NCBI RefSeq assembly: GCF_006274605.1
Contig: NZ_CP040846.1
Location: 930,001 to 994,000 of the forward strand
Length of the DNA stretch: 64,000 nt
Direction of reading: 5' to 3'
Source of the DNA: Thermococcus indicus
Lineage (GTDB): Archaea; Methanobacteriota_B; Thermococci; Thermococcales; Thermococcaceae
Below the pieces are notes generated by a model that had not been told where the DNA came from, made no database searches, and was given only the letters and a program-made list of their open reading frames with translations. Made by a program: the position numbers and the translations under genes. The stretch's first letter is position 1; each line of letters opens with the position of its first letter. Below are positions 7,264-55,482 of the stretch, one piece after another.

Positions 7264-9216
<1,953 letters not shown>

Positions 9217-46263: not shown

Positions 46264-46319
46264 CGTCTTAGCGTTAAGACGCAAACTTTAATTAGTTCGG
46301 AAACCTAATCCCATTAGGT
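46264..46319 (+). promoter_or_regulatory. two inverted repeats flanking the aldo/keto reductase promoter
   Basis: CGTCTTA-GCGT-TAAGACG (46264-46281) lies just upstream of the likely TATA element CTTTAATTAG, and ACCTAAT-CCC-ATTAGGT (46303-46319) lies over the transcription start and covers the GGTG of the ribosome binding site. Both have perfect 7-bp arms. They look like operator sites on either side of the TATA box, and the second could also fold in RNA and hide the ribosome binding site. Confidence 0.5.
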
Positions 46320-46326
46320 GCCTCCA

Positions 46327-47151
46327 ATGGGACGGGATCTGAATGTTATCGGCTCGGATAATGTCACGGCAATCGGTTTGGGAACATGGGGCATCGGTGG
46401 TTACGAGACACCGGACTATTCCCGCGATAAGGAAAGTGTTGAAGCCCTGAGGTACGGCCTTGAGCTGGGGATCAATCTCATAGACACGGCGGAGTTCTAC
46501 GGGGCCGGCCACAGCGAAGAACTCGTCGGGAAAGCCATCAGAGACTTCGAGAGGGAAGGACTCTTCATCATCAGCAAGGTCTGGCCGACGAACTTCGGCT
46601 ATGAAAAAGCCAAGAGGGCCGCGAGGGCGAGCGCGAAGAGACTCGGCACGTACATAGACCTCTACCTCCTCCACTGGCCCGGCGATAGCTGGGAAAGGAT
46701 AGAGGAAACCCTCCACGCGCTGGAAGAGCTTGTTGACGACGGCCTAATCCGATACATCGGCGTGAGCAACTTCGACCTGGAGCTTCTCAGGAAAAGCCAT
46801 GAGGTGATGAGGAAGTACGAGATAGTTGCCAACGAGGTGAAGTACTCGCTCAAGGACCGCTGGCCCGAGACGAGCGGTCTGCTCGAGTACATGAAGCGCG
46901 AAAAGATTGCCCTCATAGCTTACACTCCGCTGGAGAAAGGCTCCCTAGCGAGGAACGAATGCCTGGCCGAGATTGGGAGGAAGTACGGCAAAAGCGCCGC
47001 CCAGGTTGCGCTAAACTACCTCATCTGGGAGGATAACGTTATCGCCATTCCAAAGGCGGGCAGTAAAGCCCATATCGAAGAGAACGCCGGTGCCATGGGT
47101 TGGAGACTGAGTAAAGAGGACAGGGAGAAGGTCAAGTTATGCGTCGGGTAG
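46327..47151 (+). CDS. aldo/keto reductase
   Basis: 274 residues from the ATG at 46327, nine bases after GGTG. The (beta/alpha)8 family motifs are present: GLGTWGIGG at the start, the tetrad Asp and Tyr in LIDTAEFYGAGHSE, Lys in IISKVWP, His in LYLLHWPGD, and the cofactor loop IPKAGSKAHIEENAGA. It reduces aldehydes or ketones with NAD(P)H; the substrate is unknown. Two inverted repeats around the promoter suggest specific control. GC-rich like the core genes, unlike the operon that follows at 47249. Confidence 0.9.
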   Translation: MGRDLNVIGSDNVTAIGLGTWGIGGYETPDYSRDKESVEALRYGLELGINLIDTAEFYGAGHSEELVGKAIRDFEREGLFIISKVWPTNFGYEKAKRAARASAKRLGTYIDLYLLHWPGDSWERIEETLHALEELVDDGLIRYIGVSNFDLELLRKSHEVMRKYEIVANEVKYSLKDRWPETSGLLEYMKREKIALIAYTPLEKGSLARNECLAEIGRKYGKSAAQVALNYLIWEDNVIAIPKAGSKAHIEENAGAMGWRLSKEDREKVKLCVG

Positions 47152-47248
47152 ATGTTTTATTTTCCCTGAACAAATCCAGCATTTATTCTATCCTTAGGGG
47201 TAATCGTTAAATAGGACGAACGATTTTCTTTGATAGTGGTGGGGTCAG

Positions 47249-48085
47249 GTGACATTAGTTTTGGCATTGAAATGGATTTGGGACAAGGAGAAAAACCACG
47301 ATGCCGTTTTGATGGTCTCGGACTCCAGAGTCACCTACGGCCCTGTAACGTATGAGGCCAAGAAGATTCATTCGGTATTTGTCAATGGCATCCCGGTGGC
47401 AATAGCCGGCGGTTCTGGAGATGCCGCAATCGTCAAATACGGATATCACGTTGTTGATGAAGTCGCCCAAAAATACATGGAAAATGGGGATAGAGGTACA
47501 ACGCTCACTCAGGAAGAGTTTCGAGAACTTGTTGGTGAGGTAGAAAAGGCCCTGATTAAACGGTTCAGGGAGCTCAGGGAAATGGGAATTGACGTGAGCT
47601 TTAACATGATCCTGTCGAGTGTGGACCCTGAAGGCAGGGCTTCAATATATCACTTCGACAGCAGAGGACTCGCGGAGCCTGTTCACGATACCCCGGGGTT
47701 CGCGATAATCGGCTCGGGCTCCATAACCGGTGGTCTCTTGCTCCTCAGGCTTCTCGGCTACTCGCCGAGCGTGGAACTTAACTGGGGTCTGCTCTCCACG
47801 TTTATAGTGGACATGGTCAGCGAAATTGACCCGTCTGTCGGCCCATTCGTCGGCGAGAGCTGGCTCATGAGGGTTGAAAATGAAAAGGTAGCCCTAGGCC
47901 AGATAAAGGACGAAGCCCTGAGAGAGTTCAAAGAGCAAGTCAGAAAACGGAAAGAGCTAATTCAGGAGCTCATGTTCCTCTGTGATGTCCTTGGCGAGGA
48001 GAAAGTTGAAGAGGTTCTTTTCAGTTCCCTAATGGAGGTTGATGAAGATGACAGACGTGAGGGAGATGATAAGGGACAAAGTTAA
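47249..48085 (+). CDS. proteasome-beta-like Ntn hydrolase
   Basis: 278 residues starting at GTG 47249, so the chain begins Met-Thr; removal of Met would expose Thr2 as nucleophile. The proteasome beta pattern is clear: TLVLALKW, a hairpin about seven residues longer than usual, VSDSRVT with D25 and R27 (D17/R19 of the proteasome), AKKIHSV with K39 (K33), and IAGGSGDA. A GSGSITGGL segment may hold the Ser near 129. The last ~70 residues are a long charged helical tail not found in proteasome subunits. There is no propeptide. It is the first gene of a four-gene AT-richer operon and overlaps the next by about 38 bases. Confidence 0.85.
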   Translation: MTLVLALKWIWDKEKNHDAVLMVSDSRVTYGPVTYEAKKIHSVFVNGIPVAIAGGSGDAAIVKYGYHVVDEVAQKYMENGDRGTTLTQEEFRELVGEVEKALIKRFRELREMGIDVSFNMILSSVDPEGRASIYHFDSRGLAEPVHDTPGFAIIGSGSITGGLLLLRLLGYSPSVELNWGLLSTFIVDMVSEIDPSVGPFVGESWLMRVENEKVALGQIKDEALREFKEQVRKRKELIQELMFLCDVLGEEKVEEVLFSSLMEVDEDDRREGDDKGQS

Positions 48086-48953
48086 GGAAGCTGTGGAGAA
48101 AAAGCTGGAAGGGCTCTTCATTGATTTTCTCACCAAAGAGTTTGTTGAGCGGAGGAAGTATCGGGAGTTGCTGGCGGTTTGGCTCATTGCACATCCTGAA
48201 TTATATAGCTACCCGAAAATACTTGAGGTGGAATGCTACCACAGGGAATACTGCAGGGTTGGGGACACCAGAATACTTGAATACAAAGCAATAATGGCAA
48301 TCACCAGGCAGATAGTGAAATCCTATGAATCGGAGCTTGTGTTGAACGCTCAGAATGCCCTTGATGGTATTATCAGGAACCCAAGTTCAGTAGACGAGAA
48401 GATAACCACAAGGCAGATTTACACGAGTACACTTAACAGCCTTAAGGAGGGCATTCAGAAATACGTTGAAAACCAAGAGAGCACGCTTAAATTTAACGTT
48501 GGTTATGAGTCCATTTATCTCGAACCTCCAAAGATACTCTCAAAAGCGGCGGAGTTTATTCTCGAACGCGATAGAAATGTCACTGGATACTTTGAGAAAG
48601 AGCTCATTGAGAACATCAGAGTACTCTCAAAGGAGGCCAAGATGGCCTTCGTCGTCCTGTCGGCGTATCCAAGAACACACAATGGAGCCCCGTTCAGTTT
48701 AAGCACCTTTGATGTGGTTTGGGAAGTGGTGTCACAGGAATCCCTAAAAGCATCCAAACTTAACACCGGATGGGTACGGGAGGAGTTATATAAAGCGGGC
48801 TTAATAGCGTCTGCGGATAAAAACATCGTCCCTCCATTTGCACTCGACATCTGGAAAAACGCCGCTAACATCAGGGAAATAATCCCGGACGTGCCTCCTG
48901 AAGTCGTCGCGAGGGTTAGAACGATACTGTCATGGAGGGAGGTCAATGATTGA
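48048..48953 (+). CDS. unrecognised helical protein of the Ntn-hydrolase operon
   Basis: 301 residues from the ATG at 48048, eight bases after GGAGGT inside the end of the previous gene. I do not recognise it. Predicted mostly helical, starting with a charged amphipathic helix (REMIRDKVKEAVEKKLEGLF); a cysteine pair lies in VECYHREYCR. The last third (LSTFDVVWEVVSQESLKASK, then WVREELYKAGLIA) could be a winged helix. No membrane segment. It overlaps the gene before by 38 bases and the gene after by 8, so it must work with them, perhaps as adaptor or regulator of the peptidase (inference). Confidence 0.7.
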   Translation: MTDVREMIRDKVKEAVEKKLEGLFIDFLTKEFVERRKYRELLAVWLIAHPELYSYPKILEVECYHREYCRVGDTRILEYKAIMAITRQIVKSYESELVLNAQNALDGIIRNPSSVDEKITTRQIYTSTLNSLKEGIQKYVENQESTLKFNVGYESIYLEPPKILSKAAEFILERDRNVTGYFEKELIENIRVLSKEAKMAFVVLSAYPRTHNGAPFSLSTFDVVWEVVSQESLKASKLNTGWVREELYKAGLIASADKNIVPPFALDIWKNAANIREIIPDVPPEVVARVRTILSWREVND

Positions 48954-50091
48954 GGGAAGAATACCGTACCACGATGAAAAGGCGTGGGAAGAGTATATAG
49001 CCCAGCTCTCTCACCTTTATATGAAAATCGAGGAAGTTCTCAGACTGAGGGACTGGCTGTTTGAGGAGGCGGGGGACAGAACCGTTGATGCTCTTCTCGG
49101 CGAAAACAAAATCTGGGAAAAGGTTCTGTTCGGAGGTCTGAACGAGGACACCATAGAGAAGAACGGCCTCGCCAGGTTCTACTTGGAGATTCTCGGATTT
49201 GGGATAGCCGGGGAAGACATGGAGAGGATAGTTTCCTACCTCAAGGAAGGCATAGACCTTGAGAGTGCGTCCTCTGGAATCAAACCAGAGCTAAGGGAAA
49301 CGGACTTCATAACACTCCTCCGCTCAATGAAAAAGAACCTCTCGGATATCTTTGATGCGCTTGGGAGAGAACTTCCTTTAGTAGGCGAAGTTTCGCTGTC
49401 ATCCCCTATGGCAGGGCCGCAGGTCGTTGGTGAACTCCTTATGGCAGCAAAGGGGCTACTACCACTTTTCAACCCCCTATCCCTGTTTATAATCTCCATC
49501 CGCTCAACGCCCCGCTTTTATCTGGAGGCGAGCTACCAAAAACTGTTCACCGAGGAAGTGCAGGAGCTCTTACGCCGATACGGTATCGTTCTGGTGGACA
49601 TTGTTTTACCCGACCTACCGCTGGAGCGGGAGAAGGAGAAGCGAGCAGTTGTCGGGTTAAAACCTGGCACCGTCGGCTACAAAATTTATGAGATAATCTT
49701 TGAGTGCTACAGGCTCTTCCAGATTCGGGAGGTTGGCGACTTCTTCTTGGTCGAGGATGAGTTTGAGAAATACCTAAAGGTGTACTCCGAAAGGCTGAGA
49801 GACGTAATCCCATATGAAGAACTAACGAAAGTACATGATACACTGATCTCAGGATGGCACCCTCATGATAGTGAATTCAACTCTCTCAGAGTTTCCAGTC
49901 CATTTAGGGTATATCAAGGGACAGCCACAATAGAGGGGGGCCACATAAAGTTTGAATCAGGACTGCAGGAGAGGGTAGGCTACACCAATTTTATAGCATT
50001 CATTGCTCCCCTTGCGTTCTGCGGATTCGCAGTTCTGGACAGGCAGGGTGACAAAATCAACTATCAGGTGATTATGGGATGGGAAAGCTGA
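48946..50091 (+). CDS. unrecognised protein of the Ntn-hydrolase operon
   Basis: 381 residues. I do not recognise it. The N-terminal third is helical (WEEYIAQLSHLYMKIEEVLR). The middle has a hydrophobic but probably soluble stretch, AAKGLLPLFNPLSLFIISIR. A beta-rich end follows (SPFRVYQGTATIEGGHIKFE, then FIAFIAPLAFCGFAVL). The local order beta-helix around LLRRYGIVLVDIVLPDLPLE suggests an alpha/beta domain. No catalytic motif is apparent. ATG at 48946 lies inside the previous gene with GGAGG before it, and the end overlaps the next gene by 13 bases. Confidence 0.7.
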   Translation: MIEGRIPYHDEKAWEEYIAQLSHLYMKIEEVLRLRDWLFEEAGDRTVDALLGENKIWEKVLFGGLNEDTIEKNGLARFYLEILGFGIAGEDMERIVSYLKEGIDLESASSGIKPELRETDFITLLRSMKKNLSDIFDALGRELPLVGEVSLSSPMAGPQVVGELLMAAKGLLPLFNPLSLFIISIRSTPRFYLEASYQKLFTEEVQELLRRYGIVLVDIVLPDLPLEREKEKRAVVGLKPGTVGYKIYEIIFECYRLFQIREVGDFFLVEDEFEKYLKVYSERLRDVIPYEELTKVHDTLISGWHPHDSEFNSLRVSSPFRVYQGTATIEGGHIKFESGLQERVGYTNFIAFIAPLAFCGFAVLDRQGDKINYQVIMGWES

Positions 50092-51713
50092 CAAAAATGG
50101 AGGTTAAAACAAAGAGAAAACCACTGGTAGTGGAAGAAATTATCGTCACAGACTTCACGCCGGATGCGATAGTATCAAAAAGGGAAGATACCAAAACCAA
50201 GGTCAAAAAGCGAACCATTAAAGTCCCCCTGCTTCTACCGGTGTTTCAAAAACCTCGTGATATAACATTCCACACCGTAGAGGGAGTTTCCTTTCCAGAG
50301 CCGTTTAACCTATCCAAAATCCGACCAGTTGAGAGGCTGATGTTTCTCAAGGCCGAGGGTGTTGAATACAGGGAAATTAAGGCAGAAGTTTTTACCCCTT
50401 ACCTTTCCCATTTGCTCGACATAATTCTCAAAAAATTTCCTGAGGTTCACTTTGAGGAGCCCGAGCCTGTTGGTTTTGATGTTACTGAAGATGTTAGAAC
50501 GCCTCCCAAAAAAGACCTGAATTCACTTTCCGTTCCAGTGGTCACACCCATTTTCTTGAAGTTATCCGGTGATGTCAGTTATTCAATAACAACGGAAATC
50601 GGCTTGGTGGTTGCTGCCGGGTCTTCAGGGGAAATCCCTGAAATAGAACTTCCAGTGGAAGACATGTTTTCAAAGGCCTTTGGCTCGGGTGTATCGTTCC
50701 TCCCCGAAGGGCCCGTTATAATTCTCGCCAAAAAGCCCGAGGAAAAGAAGCTGGGATACATAGAGTTTCTGAAACGCGTTCTCAGAGAGATTTACAGGGT
50801 AAGAGTCGGAGGATTACCAACCGCATACCATGTCATGTTGCCAGAGGATACAGATAGATTACAGTCTCTCCGGGCAGGAAAATCCATTTTTGTCCTTGAC
50901 TGGGTGGGTAAGAAGGAGCCGGAGGAAGAACTGAAAAAACAACACTTAAAAATCATGACCGAAAAGGTTAGAGAGCTGTTTTCCCAAGGTTTTGGTTTCT
51001 TGGTATTCTACGGCAACGAAGAGTTCCTTAAGTGGGTAAAACATAAGGTGTTCAATTCGGTACTTTATATTTCGGACTCGGGCAACGTTAAAATGTCACT
51101 AGTCCAAAAATGGGTTAAGCTAGATCTACAATCCGCCGAAAGTTTATGCAAGCTCATTCACAATTTTTGGGGTTTCTATGGTGAGCAGGAACCTGTAGAC
51201 AGGGGATTCGATTATCTCGCCCCGCATCTGGAGGACAAATATCGGGAATTCTTAGAAACCTACACAAGAACCATCCGGATACACGGCAAAACAATTCCAT
51301 CCCCACTGTATATTGAAGGCAACCCTGGAGAGAGCTTGATTCACTACGCCCTGAAGGCCTTTGTGTTTGAAAGATTGGTGGAAGATTATGGCGTTAATCC
51401 AAACGACATAGAAACTGAGTATCCCGAAGGGGAGATGAGAATAGATGTGCACGTCAAGTCTCAAAACATTGCAGTTGAGATAGAAACGTTCTATGGGGAG
51501 ACCCTTCCATTACTGAAACTGAGAAAAGACGTGGAGAGCCGACTGACCACTAAATCAGAGCTGTGGATAGTTTTACCCCCAACATCGTACGTGCTTTTCA
51601 AGAACGATGTGCATGCGTTTATAAAATGGACTCTCGCCAGACCGGAGTATAGAAATCGCGTTAAGGTTTTCACGGTGGATGTAAACAACAGAAAGCTGAT
51701 TCAGGTGTCTTAA
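50079..51713 (+). CDS. large protein with C-terminal PD-(D/E)xK-like nuclease domain
   Basis: 544 residues. The first ~400 are unrecognised, beta-rich at the beginning. The C-terminal ~140 residues fit a restriction-endonuclease-like fold: helix GESLIHYALKAFVF with E418, then strand RIDVHV with D456, then AVEIET with E467 and E469, then helix LLKLRKDVESRL. The usual ExK lysine is Glu469; a nearby K480 or K483 could substitute, as in families where the lysine has moved. The final strand ELWIVLP and RVKVFTVD complete the core. Start ATG at 50079 has GGTGAT six bases upstream. Last gene of the operon. Confidence 0.75.
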   Translation: MGKLTKMEVKTKRKPLVVEEIIVTDFTPDAIVSKREDTKTKVKKRTIKVPLLLPVFQKPRDITFHTVEGVSFPEPFNLSKIRPVERLMFLKAEGVEYREIKAEVFTPYLSHLLDIILKKFPEVHFEEPEPVGFDVTEDVRTPPKKDLNSLSVPVVTPIFLKLSGDVSYSITTEIGLVVAAGSSGEIPEIELPVEDMFSKAFGSGVSFLPEGPVIILAKKPEEKKLGYIEFLKRVLREIYRVRVGGLPTAYHVMLPEDTDRLQSLRAGKSIFVLDWVGKKEPEEELKKQHLKIMTEKVRELFSQGFGFLVFYGNEEFLKWVKHKVFNSVLYISDSGNVKMSLVQKWVKLDLQSAESLCKLIHNFWGFYGEQEPVDRGFDYLAPHLEDKYREFLETYTRTIRIHGKTIPSPLYIEGNPGESLIHYALKAFVFERLVEDYGVNPNDIETEYPEGEMRIDVHVKSQNIAVEIETFYGETLPLLKLRKDVESRLTTKSELWIVLPPTSYVLFKNDVHAFIKWTLARPEYRNRVKVFTVDVNNRKLIQVS

Positions 51714-51803
51714 TCACAGGCTCTCCCCGCTGCCGCAACCTCTATAAACACCTCTGCTAACCTATTTTAATATGGATCTCTTAATGGTTCGAGGTGTATT
51801 GAT

Positions 51804-53669
51804 ATGATGGGATACCACAACAGGCTCGCGAGGGTGAACCTTAGCAGGGGAAAGGTAACCTACGAGGAACTGCCCGACGAGGTGATAAGGAAGTTCATAG
51901 GTGGAAAGGGCCTCGGCTACTACCTTATTTACAGGGAGGTTCCACCGGGGACAGATCCACTCAGTCCGGCCAACAAGTTCGTCTTTGCTCCGGGCGGACT
52001 AACAGGATTAATTCCGGGTTCGAGCAAGGTCATAGCGGTGAGCAAGAGCCCCGAGACGGGACTAATCAGCGACTCCAGTGGGGGAGACGCTTTCGGCCCA
52101 AAGCTCAAGGGCCACTTCGACGCGCTCGTAATCGAGGGGAAGGCTGAAGAGCCAGTTTACCTCCACGTCCACGATGGAAAAGTCGAGATTAGAGACGCGA
52201 GCCACCTCTGGGGGAAGGGCAACTATGAGGTTGCCAGAAGGCTCTGGAAGGAACACCCGAAGGCGAGCATGGCCCTGATAGGCCCTGCAGGCGAGAGACT
52301 CAGCAGGATCGCCAACGTGGTTTACGACACCGAGAGGGCCAGCGGAAGGGGCGGCCTTGGAGCGGTTCTCGGAAGCAAGAAAGTTAAAGCTGTGGTTGTC
52401 GAACCGGGCGAGAAGCCCAAGGTAGCCAACCCAGAGGAGTTCCAGAGGCTATGGGAGGAGTTCTACGAGCACTTCGCCACAGACCCGAAGTACGAGCACA
52501 CGAGGAACTACGGCACGAGCGATGCCCTCAGGAGTGCCGCCTCGCTCGGCATGAGCCCCGCCTACAACTTCTCGAGGCCATACATCCCGGACGAGCTCGC
52601 GAGCAAATTAGCCGGAGACGAGGTCAAGAAGTATGAAGTCGAGCCGGAATGGTTCGTCCACGGCAAGAGCTGTCCGATTAAGTGCGCCCGCTACGTTGAG
52701 GTGGAATACAAGGGCAGAAAAATCCGCGTCAAGCCGGAATACGAGAGCATAGCCATGCTTGGAGCCTCAACAGGAGTTTTCAACTTTCCAGCGGTGGCCT
52801 ACTTCAACTGGCTCGTGAACGACCTTGGATTGGACAGCATAGCCACTGGAAACACGATAGCGTGGCTCTTTGAGATGGTCGAGAAAGGTCTGATAAGCGA
52901 AGACGAGATAGGCCTCCCCGTTAAGGGCTTCGGTGATGAGGAAGCGGAGGAAAGGCTCATCAGGCTGATGGCAGAGAGGAAGGGCTTTGGGGCAATTTTG
53001 GCGGACGGCGTTAAAAGGACCTGCGAGAGGCTCGGCAGGGGCTGTGAGTTCGCCGTCCACGTGAAGGGAATGGAGAGCCCCGCATGGGACCCGCGTGGAA
53101 GGAGAACCTACGCTTTGAGCTACGCCACCGCTGACGTCGGAGCGAGCCATCTGAGGGGCTGGCCGAGACCGCACCAACTTCCGAACCAGGGGCCGGCAAA
53201 GGAACTGGTGCCTTCGATGATAGAGGGCAGGGACGAGAGCTACATCACCGACATGCTCGGAACCTGTAAGTTTGTGTCCTACAAGATGGAGGATCTGGCC
53301 AGGTTCTACTCCCTGGCAACTGGCGAGGAGTGGACGGTTGAAAAGCTCAGGAAGGTCGCCCAGGCGGTTGAGAGCATCGCCAGAATACACGACGCTCTCG
53401 ACTGGGTTACGCCTCCACTCGACGACACCATTCCACCGCGCTGGTGGGAGCCGGAATCAGAGGGGCCAGCGGAGGGCAACGCGGCTTTCATAGACTACAA
53501 CGACTTCATTGAAGCAAGAAGGGAGTTCTACAGGCTGAGGGGCTGGCATGAAGAGCTCGGAGTTCCGCTACCGGAGACCATGGAGGAGCTCGGCTATCCA
53601 GAGTTCAAGGGCGACGCGGAGAGGGCGTTGGAGGTCGTAAAGAAGAGAATGGGGTTCAGGCAGGACTGA
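51804..53669 (+). CDS. tungsten aldehyde:ferredoxin oxidoreductase family protein (WOR4-like)
   Basis: 621 residues, AOR family size. Family motifs for the bis-pterin tungsten site include APGGLTGLIPGSSKVIAVSK and VVYDTERASGRGGLGAVLGS. Active members oxidise aldehydes with ferredoxin. The iron-sulfur site differs: where AOR has CxxCxxxC, this protein reads GKSCPIKC, so the first Cys is replaced by Gly, while the later DMLGTCKF Cys remains. Three ligands would suit a 3Fe-4S cluster, which is what has been reported for Pyrococcus WOR4. GAGGTG precedes the ATG, with TTTTAATATG around 51765-51774 as TATA. GC content returns to core level here. Confidence 0.88.
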   Translation: MMGYHNRLARVNLSRGKVTYEELPDEVIRKFIGGKGLGYYLIYREVPPGTDPLSPANKFVFAPGGLTGLIPGSSKVIAVSKSPETGLISDSSGGDAFGPKLKGHFDALVIEGKAEEPVYLHVHDGKVEIRDASHLWGKGNYEVARRLWKEHPKASMALIGPAGERLSRIANVVYDTERASGRGGLGAVLGSKKVKAVVVEPGEKPKVANPEEFQRLWEEFYEHFATDPKYEHTRNYGTSDALRSAASLGMSPAYNFSRPYIPDELASKLAGDEVKKYEVEPEWFVHGKSCPIKCARYVEVEYKGRKIRVKPEYESIAMLGASTGVFNFPAVAYFNWLVNDLGLDSIATGNTIAWLFEMVEKGLISEDEIGLPVKGFGDEEAEERLIRLMAERKGFGAILADGVKRTCERLGRGCEFAVHVKGMESPAWDPRGRRTYALSYATADVGASHLRGWPRPHQLPNQGPAKELVPSMIEGRDESYITDMLGTCKFVSYKMEDLARFYSLATGEEWTVEKLRKVAQAVESIARIHDALDWVTPPLDDTIPPRWWEPESEGPAEGNAAFIDYNDFIEARREFYRLRGWHEELGVPLPETMEELGYPEFKGDAERALEVVKKRMGFRQD

Positions 53670-54402: not shown

Positions 54403-55482
54403 TTAACCGTGAAACACAGTATGGGGTGGGTAGACAAATACTGAAACGTCTATGTCTTCAGGTGATTTTGTTATCACTGTATAGTCGGGGGTTTTGAAAT
54501 AGAACTCTCCACTTACCCGGTATTTGAAGACACCGAAATACGTAGTGGTAGCTGTTGATGTGGTTTTCATGGTAGTGGCCGTTTTCATGTAGAAAGAACG
54601 ACCCCACGCGGGAGGGTCCCTCCACCAAGATTTTTTCTTGAAGTCATATGCATGGAAATCCACGTAGCTGTTAGGATCTGCAGTGTGGGTATCAATCCTA
54701 AAGTAGTAATCATCGTTTGTGTTTACAGAATAGCCTGCACTGGCGCTGATCTTGGTTGCCTCTTCTGGAGTCAATTCGACGGTCAGGGATTCATAATAAC
54801 TTGTAGTTGGTCCAATGTGTCCGTCCGGAAGGAAATCGTCTATTACCTCATGTGTGTGCCCCCGACTTACGTGGAGGTCAAGATCCTTAACTGCAACCGC
54901 TGATGAGGATACATCCCCACGAAGCTTTGTTTGGGCATAGTACTCAATAGTATTCTGGTCAATCACGTAATAATAATAGAACCCCTTAAATTCAAGATAC
55001 CCGCTCTGTCCAAGATAGGAGACAGTATGAGTTATATAGTCAATACTCCCGGCATAGTTCCAGTTTACGTTGGGTTCGATGCTCGATGCAATTTTAATGT
55101 CCGAAACCTGAGCCCTAAAGTGACCTTCTGCAAATTCTGTAAACTTTCTCTGAATGAGAGAATATTCCCAAGGCTTTGCCCCTTGAACTATGTAATATGC
55201 AGGAATGTACGCCCCATTACCTGCTGGTCTCAGGGCTATTCCAATGAAAGTTATGTTATTCATGGTGTCGAAGTTTAAAGTAAGTGTTACCGGGAGTCCC
55301 TTAAGAAAAGCACGGGCTTGAATTTGTGCGTTGGGACCTGTGAAAGCTTTTGTCAGAGGTTGGGATGGCAGAATTGGATGGATGGGCTTTTGTACCACAG
55401 CATGGACACTCCCCGTAGTCGCCCCCACCACCAGCAGTCCGAGGAGGACTGCCAGCAGAGACTTCCGCTTCAAGTGCTTCAC
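54403..55482 (-). CDS. secreted protein of unknown function
   Basis: 359 residues with a clear signal peptide (KRKSLLAVLLGLLVVGATTGSVHA). The mature part is Tyr- and Thr-rich and looks like beta structure (GYLEFKGFYYYYVIDQNTIE; TTMKTTSTATTTYFGVFKY). One HTHEVIDDFLPDGH segment has two His and three acidic residues that could bind a metal. No family recognised. TTTATATAGG at about 55517-55526 on the minus strand is a good TATA box, and CGGAGG precedes the ATG. Codon and base composition are less GC-rich than the core, suggesting a lineage-specific or acquired gene. Confidence 0.7.
   Translation of the reverse strand: MKHLKRKSLLAVLLGLLVVGATTGSVHAVVQKPIHPILPSQPLTKAFTGPNAQIQARAFLKGLPVTLTLNFDTMNNITFIGIALRPAGNGAYIPAYYIVQGAKPWEYSLIQRKFTEFAEGHFRAQVSDIKIASSIEPNVNWNYAGSIDYITHTVSYLGQSGYLEFKGFYYYYVIDQNTIEYYAQTKLRGDVSSSAVAVKDLDLHVSRGHTHEVIDDFLPDGHIGPTTSYYESLTVELTPEEATKISASAGYSVNTNDDYYFRIDTHTADPNSYVDFHAYDFKKKSWWRDPPAWGRSFYMKTATTMKTTSTATTTYFGVFKYRVSGEFYFKTPDYTVITKSPEDIDVSVFVYPPHTVFHG

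Follow-up and report, generated by a model that had tools for sequence, protein, structure and literature searches.

A transferred archaeal gene cassette linking a proteasome-like protein to a probable nuclease is a candidate conflict system

Fuchs, Alva and Lupas described 22 new families of proteasome-like proteins in 2021, for which genomic context hinted at no function (PMC8665760). The same study covers ACC, a rare archaeal proteasome-like family with a C-terminal coiled coil (representative WP_161937350.1), and connectase, an archaeal proteasome homologue that is a specific ligase, so that "proteasome-like" need not mean hydrolysis (PMC8665760). Loci of the bacterial systems Hachiman, AVAST and canu were reported in 2025 to carry pro-nucleases that a partner protease, trypsin-like or a caspase, activates (PMC12799240), and the main text of a 2026 survey of archaeal immunity contains no word starting with "proteas" or "peptidase" (PMC12988326). 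Here, we describe an operon of four genes, P1 to P4, from the Thermococcales genome of Thermococcus indicus (G000:C1:930001-994000; this whole 64,000-nucleotide stretch, which was the DNA analysed, is referred to in the following as the window). P1 is a proteasome-like protein and P4 is nuclease-like. The data give good support for a mobile, conserved peptidase–nuclease conflict cassette. No description of it was found in an open-access library, which covers a part of the whole literature.

The four genes span positions 47249–51713 on the + strand and overlap successively by 38, 8 and 13 bases, as stated in an earlier account made from the letters alone, hereafter the sequence-only reading. 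They are also AT-richer than their flanks, as that account had it: the GC content is 0.50 for P1, 0.46 for P2, 0.49 for P3 and 0.44 for P4, against 0.56 for the upstream aldo/keto reductase (AKR) gene, 0.58 for the downstream aldehyde ferredoxin oxidoreductase (AOR) gene and 0.543 for the window. AT-richness alone is little proof, however, because another gene in the window (54403–55482, - strand, GC 0.456) is equally AT-rich. All four genes are under purifying selection, with ratios of nonsynonymous to synonymous substitution rates (dN/dS) between the window and G036 of ≈0.10, ≈0.18, ≈0.17 and ≈0.13 for P1 to P4, respectively, showing that the cassette is not debris. A comparison of AOR with G006 was out of frame and was left out.

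P1 was found in 6 of 81 Thermococcales genomes and P4 in 9 (E ≤ 0.001), the latter including one remnant (G002) and one distant homologue (G040), while the AKR gene was present in 74. At all 27 non-carrier AKR loci that were read, AOR abuts or overlaps AKR, with a TGATG stop–start overlap at most of the junctions; the 4.6-kb block was therefore inserted exactly between the two genes. In four carriers (G000, G036, G006 and G021) the entire cassette lies precisely at this point, preceded by its own AT-rich leader, which is comparable from carrier to carrier. A new TATA-like element and ribosome-binding site before AOR are conserved in the carriers and absent in non-carriers, where AOR overlaps its upstream neighbour. 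No transposon terminal repeats common to the carriers were found at the insertion. In Pyrococcus-like genomes (genus g2) the cassette occupies other sites. An intact operon in G050 stands beside a phosphohexomutase-like gene, and of P4, G002 and G027 (contig C2) retain just a C-terminal remnant at that same place. Stop codons interrupt P4 in G021, where P1 is intact; the AOR gene downstream of the broken P4 has also been cut down to its first residues (L025, ~8330–8830). The cassette is a non-core locus that is patchily distributed, inserted and in places decaying. It is present in a minority of Thermococcus and at an insertion site, rather than conserved at one place in all Thermococcus genomes, the pattern that the sequence-only reading had set against its own proposal.

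Profiles of P3 and P4 recovered the same two-gene order at many further Thermococcales loci and in several other archaeal families. P3 is directly upstream of P4 in most of these loci, some copies are fragmented, and P1 is absent from most. P3–P4 forms a core of two genes with a patchy distribution across many archaeal lineages, and it has often decayed. At one locus (L193, 7619–8245, in G289) a different third partner, a 208-amino-acid protein with a weak match to a TFIIE-alpha-like helix-turn-helix, sits between P3 and P4. Other P3–P4 pairs, from Thermococcus and archaeal family f46, have the same neighbours on one or both sides, tRNA-modification-like and clamp-loader-like genes named by eye (L099, L100, L101 and L189), which suggests that these sites are a common insertion hotspot.

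The wider search for P1 comprised 396 archaeal relatives. G298, which has only its domain in common with the window genome, encodes a P1 homologue with 56% identity that adjoins P3–P4 on the opposite strand, in convergent orientation, and has no P2. Wherever P1 is intact and its surroundings can be read, which holds for seven genes, it adjoins P3–P4. G332 and G407 have further copies that are either broken or located at the end of a contig; the P1 homologue in G332 is seemingly split by ~7 kb that include toxin–antitoxin-like genes (L149, 3868–11918). The link between P1, P3 and P4 thus survives transfer, sequence divergence and changes in gene order, which is strong evidence that the three proteins work together. 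The recurrence in G298 makes the protease–nuclease link far stronger than could be seen from the window. The sequence-only reading had proposed a survey of whether all four genes travel together; intact P1 does travel with P3–P4, in G298 in another gene order, and P2 does not always accompany them.

In a tree of P4 proteins, the P1-linked members form a near-clade with two label changes, and only 1 of 500 shuffles gave a number as low. A member that lacks P1 (G219) lies inside this near-clade, and the order of lineages departs from their kinship. P1 is an added partner of one P4 subclade and P2 is optional, so the unit of four genes has to be replaced by the P3–P4 core. This distribution bears on one alternative, that the cassette is defensive or selfish and P1 a clearance protease for P4, P3 or damaged protein, serving as an off-switch or antitoxin-like safety. 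In its favour, most P3–P4 pairs manage without P1, and the intact P1 next to the broken P4 in G021 shows that P1 alone is harmless. On the other hand, the published protease–nuclease pairs act in the activating direction (PMC12799240), and the broken or orphaned P1 genes of G332 and G407, with no P3–P4 in view, do not discriminate. We consider a clearance role unlikely.

P1 matched the Pfam Proteasome family (PF00227) just above its cut-off (22.9 bits versus 22.4; E 7.7e-5). It scored 13.8 against the NCBIfam model arc_protsome_B, which has a cut-off of 224, and reached no NCBIfam proteasome model; in the PDB, the best proteasome-family chain had an E value of only 0.72. The window genome also encodes its own proteasome alpha subunit and two beta subunits. 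When aligned with these, P1 displays a Thr directly after the Met, equivalents of Asp17, Lys33 and the oxyanion Gly, and a GSGS segment. Residues T2, D25, K39 and G54/G55 are the equivalents of Thr1, Asp17, Lys33 and the oxyanion Gly47; Thr1, Asp17 and Lys33 are defined as proteasome catalytic residues in PMC8665760. In P1 relatives down to 56% identity, T2, D25, K39 and GG54–55 are invariant, and R27, which the sequence-only reading had included in the catalytic pattern, is Lys in two. The same reading had seen no propeptide. The GTG at 47249 is the sole in-frame start, and a stop codon at 47234, 15 bases upstream, excludes one. Judged by its sequence, P1 is a proteasome-family protein with a complete set of catalytic residues and no propeptide, an architecture that fits a predicted enzyme switched on merely by removal of the Met. 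It is very improbable that P1 is instead a protein ligase or scaffold, a role that connectase and other proteasome-like proteins may have. Connectase provides the precedent (PMC8665760), but none of the connectase-type helical insertions were seen between the equivalent strands of P1, as far as the sequence tells.

The C-terminus of P1 (47834–48049, residues ~196–267) resembles the C-terminus of aminopeptidase-like Thermococcus proteins of ~570 amino acids (L035, L040 and L041; E down to 3e-7), and is perhaps a tail common to two unrelated peptidases. The ~570-residue Thermococcus open reading frames that match this part of P1 are not P1 homologues.

In 17 divergent homologues, the C-terminal domain of P4 keeps H422/K426, D456, E467, E469, T470 and K480, with E418 opening a helix. 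Of the PD-(D/E)xK motif, the domain has D456 and E467, but every homologue has Glu469 where the Lys would be; K480 is conserved away from this position. With Glu for the motif Lys, this would be a variant PD-(D/E)xK domain; motifs in which another residue replaces the Lys exist in the superfamily. AlphaFold models of P4 and P3 were made from two-sequence alignments (window and L016). In the P4 model, residues 420–542 form a helix, three strands, a helix and a strand with a predicted local distance difference test (pLDDT) of 54–85, against 38 overall; D456 and E467/E469 are on neighbouring strands, and the order matches the PD-(D/E)xK core. A Foldseek search of the PDB with this model gave nothing below E 0.001. 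The middle region has an alpha/beta order in the low-confidence model. Structure prediction supports the topology of the C-terminal domain only. P4 probably ends in a PD-(D/E)xK-like domain and is a predicted nuclease, in line with the sequence-only reading, which had named E418, D456, E467 and Glu469. The profile and structure checks which that account proposed yielded PF00227 for P1 and the C-terminal topology of P4, with no significant structural match for P4 and no credible profile match for P2 or P3.

The N-terminal region of P4 was considered as the site of a P1-specific cleavage insertion, and this idea was rejected; no such feature was seen, and the repeats in this region are at their strongest in a clade that lacks P1. 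These P4 homologues (L098:8430–10307, P4 residues 101–188; also L102, L099, L100 and L189) carry a tandem repeat of ~32 residues, [IV]P-x-[FIV]...F...L-x-[VI], with 18 pattern matches versus 0.7 expected from shuffles, the pattern having been derived from the same proteins. The repeat is weak or absent in the P4 of the window.

The replacement of the motif Lys by Glu469 would also suit a niche system for stress, repair or protein quality, with an Anbu- or HslV-like P1 and with P4 as a repair nuclease or a non-catalytic PD-(D/E)xK fold. The complete proteasome-type active site of P1 and the metabolic genes at the flanks agree with this. However, the patchy, transferred and decaying distribution is unlike that of housekeeping genes, the operon has no AAA+ unfoldase, and the near-invariance of D456, E467 and E469 points to catalysis. 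A housekeeping role of this kind is improbable.

Neither P2 nor P3 has a credible match in Pfam, NCBIfam, PADLOC or PHROGs, as the sequence-only reading had said of the two middle proteins, and they show no homology to each other. PDB profile searches with P2, P3 and P4 gave nothing credible, the matches to P3 being helical or designed proteins, and the P3 model (pLDDT 32) was unusable. Beyond Thermococcales, P2 gave weak partial matches only. It is missing from the P1–P3–P4 loci of G027 and G298, and is confined to Thermococcales and dispensable. The features of the locus are listed in Table 1.

Table 1. Position and description of the cassette genes, their parts and the flanking genes in the window.
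Feature	Position	Strand	Description
P1	47249..48085	+	278-aa proteasome-like (Ntn, threonine) peptidase, predicted from PF00227 and alignments; GTG start, Thr at position 2, no propeptide
P1 catalytic triad codons	47252..47365	+	Thr2 47252-47254, Asp25 47321-47323, Lys39 47363-47365; assigned by aligning P1 with the proteasome beta subunits of the same genome
P2	48048..48953	+	301 aa; no family match in the libraries; seen only with P1 in Thermococcales
P3	48946..50091	+	381 aa; no fold match; constant partner upstream of P4-type nucleases
P4	50079..51713	+	544 aa; variable N-terminal region of ~190 residues, then an alpha/beta region and a nuclease-like domain at the C-terminus
P4 middle region, residues ~205-375	50691..51203	+	Conserved together with the nuclease domain; profile match and low-confidence model
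P4 PD-(D/E)xK-like domain, residues 415-544	51321..51710	+	E418, D456, E467-x-E469, K480; near-invariant columns and predicted topology
Cassette leader	47152..47248	+	TATA-like TTAAATA 47207-47213 and GTGGTGGGG ribosome-binding-like run; read directly
Insertion right end	51714..51803	+	TATA-like TCTATAAA 51741-51748 and GAGGTG site before the downstream AOR gene
AKR, left flank	46318..47151	+	Aldo/keto reductase; core gene, 74/81 genomes
AOR, right flank	51804..53669	+	Aldehyde ferredoxin oxidoreductase; abuts the AKR gene in 27/27 non-carrier loci read

The product of the AT-rich gene at 54403–55482, close to the cassette, has 359 amino acids and matched nothing credibly in Pfam; L032 carries a homologue of 72% identity downstream of AOR.

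Several of the loci have neighbours known from defence. The P1–P3–P4 genes of G027 are flanked on one side by AbiEi, AbiEii and a resolvase, and on the other by a PIN-domain gene. A P3–P4 pair is downstream of type I restriction–modification genes and an IetA-like ATPase in G268 and downstream of a DNA methylase in G289, and VapBC genes also adjoin some P3–P4 loci. The AbiE and VapBC neighbours would suit P3–P4 being a selfish, toxin–antitoxin-like addiction pair with no role in cell defence and with P1 and P2 as passengers, as would the tight P3–P4 overlap, the patchy spread, the insertion between core genes and the frequent decay. Both proteins are long for classical toxin–antitoxin genes, however, and the link of P1 to P3–P4 is conserved across very distant archaea; P4 C-terminal remnants that persist without P3 are neutral. 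We regard pure addiction as distinctly unlikely.

The general marks of conflict cassettes, namely patchy presence, insertion at a syntenic locus and horizontal spread, are all found here. Conflict systems are marked by such patchiness and transfer, by decay and by insertion between core genes, and we read the locus as one of them. Our leading interpretation, held tentatively and at slightly less than an even balance, is an archaeal conflict cassette that moves horizontally and most likely serves antivirus or antiplasmid defence, with the threonine peptidase P1 controlling the nuclease P4. The sequence-only reading had suggested an undescribed defence or abortive system. The patchy, transferred and decaying distribution and some defence neighbours fit that suggestion, which is thus partly supported, and its defence role is, like proteolytic gating, put forward here as a hypothesis.

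Several observations weigh against this interpretation. In the P4 tree, 21 of 28 members are without P1, so the P3–P4 core can do without it, and P1 is better conserved than P4, so their divergence rates are unmatched. P4 showed neither a cleavage site nor an insertion specific to P1, and its sequence departs from the canonical catalytic Asp plus (Asp/Glu)-x-Lys. The defence neighbours were picked by eye, with no background rate behind them. No component model in PADLOC-DB 2.0.0 matched P1–P4, up to E 5, and the cassette is therefore not a known system; nor did any Pfam, NCBIfam, PADLOC or PHROG model match P2, P3 or P4. Viral contigs had no P1 and no P4 nuclease domain, phages had no P3 or P4, and plasmids had no P1, the sole match in all three sets being one Halorussus plasmid.

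If P1 does control P4, the system might work as follows. P3 and/or the long N-terminal region of P4 would restrain the P4 nuclease, P3 acting as the constant regulator or sensor to which P1 was presumably recruited in one subclade. P1 would become active once its initiator Met is removed and the Thr exposed, and would then most likely cut P4 or P3 (or, in the window, P2), as either trigger or brake of the nuclease. Released P4 would destroy the DNA of the invader and/or the host. The nuclease activity of P4, the peptidase activity of P1, the role in defence and the direction of regulation in this scheme are all what we infer. A narrower version of it is doubtful, namely a proteasome-derived archaeal immune protease, in which a stand-alone threonine peptidase gates a DNA nuclease and triggers an abortive or anti-invader response, independently of the bacterial trypsin- and caspase-gated nucleases.

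What is new here is the P3–P4 core, the tie of P1 to one P4 subclade and the restriction of P2 to Thermococcales. One archaeal proteasome homologue now has a constant pair of partners, and with them a directly testable role. The P3–P4 family, absent from Pfam, NCBIfam, PHROGs and PADLOC, is a widespread candidate for a conflict system in archaea, where defence is poorly catalogued.

P1 shares its fold and active-site residues with Anbu, HslV and the 20S proteasome beta subunit, but reaches none of the NCBIfam proteasome models. It may belong to ACC, which is likewise rare, confined to archaea and devoid of a propeptide, with catalytic Thr, Asp, Lys and Gly and a C-terminal extension past the core. 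Whereas the homologues in the 2021 survey were without informative context (PMC8665760), P1 has a fixed pair of partners that includes a nuclease-like protein. A candidate haloarchaeal relative of the cassette is a three-gene unit near an integrase on the Halorussus pelagicus plasmid NZ_CP035121.1 (L042, 3609–12435; 629, 792 and 1403 amino acids). Its 1403-residue protein ends in the middle and nuclease module of P4 (hmmsearch with the P4 profile, E 1.4e-44, model positions 240–588). This operon differs in having no P1, in the fusion of the P4 module to ~950 other residues, and in its neighbours, a PLD-domain protein (the 792-residue product) and an unmatched protein. Like the P1–P4 cassette, the Hachiman, AVAST and canu loci are modular, transferred units in which a nuclease is linked with a protease. 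They are bacterial and combine a metallo-beta-lactamase (MBL)-fold pro-nuclease with a trypsin-like or caspase protease, folds that P1–P4 did not match in Pfam or PADLOC, whereas the archaeal cassette combines a proteasome-type Thr peptidase with a PD-(D/E)xK-like protein and has an extra, obligatory P3. By analogy, the logic of P1–P4 may be that of these protease-activated pro-nucleases, carried out by other protease and nuclease folds. If P1 does gate P4, then proteolytic activation of a nuclease would have arisen again, from a third protease fold.

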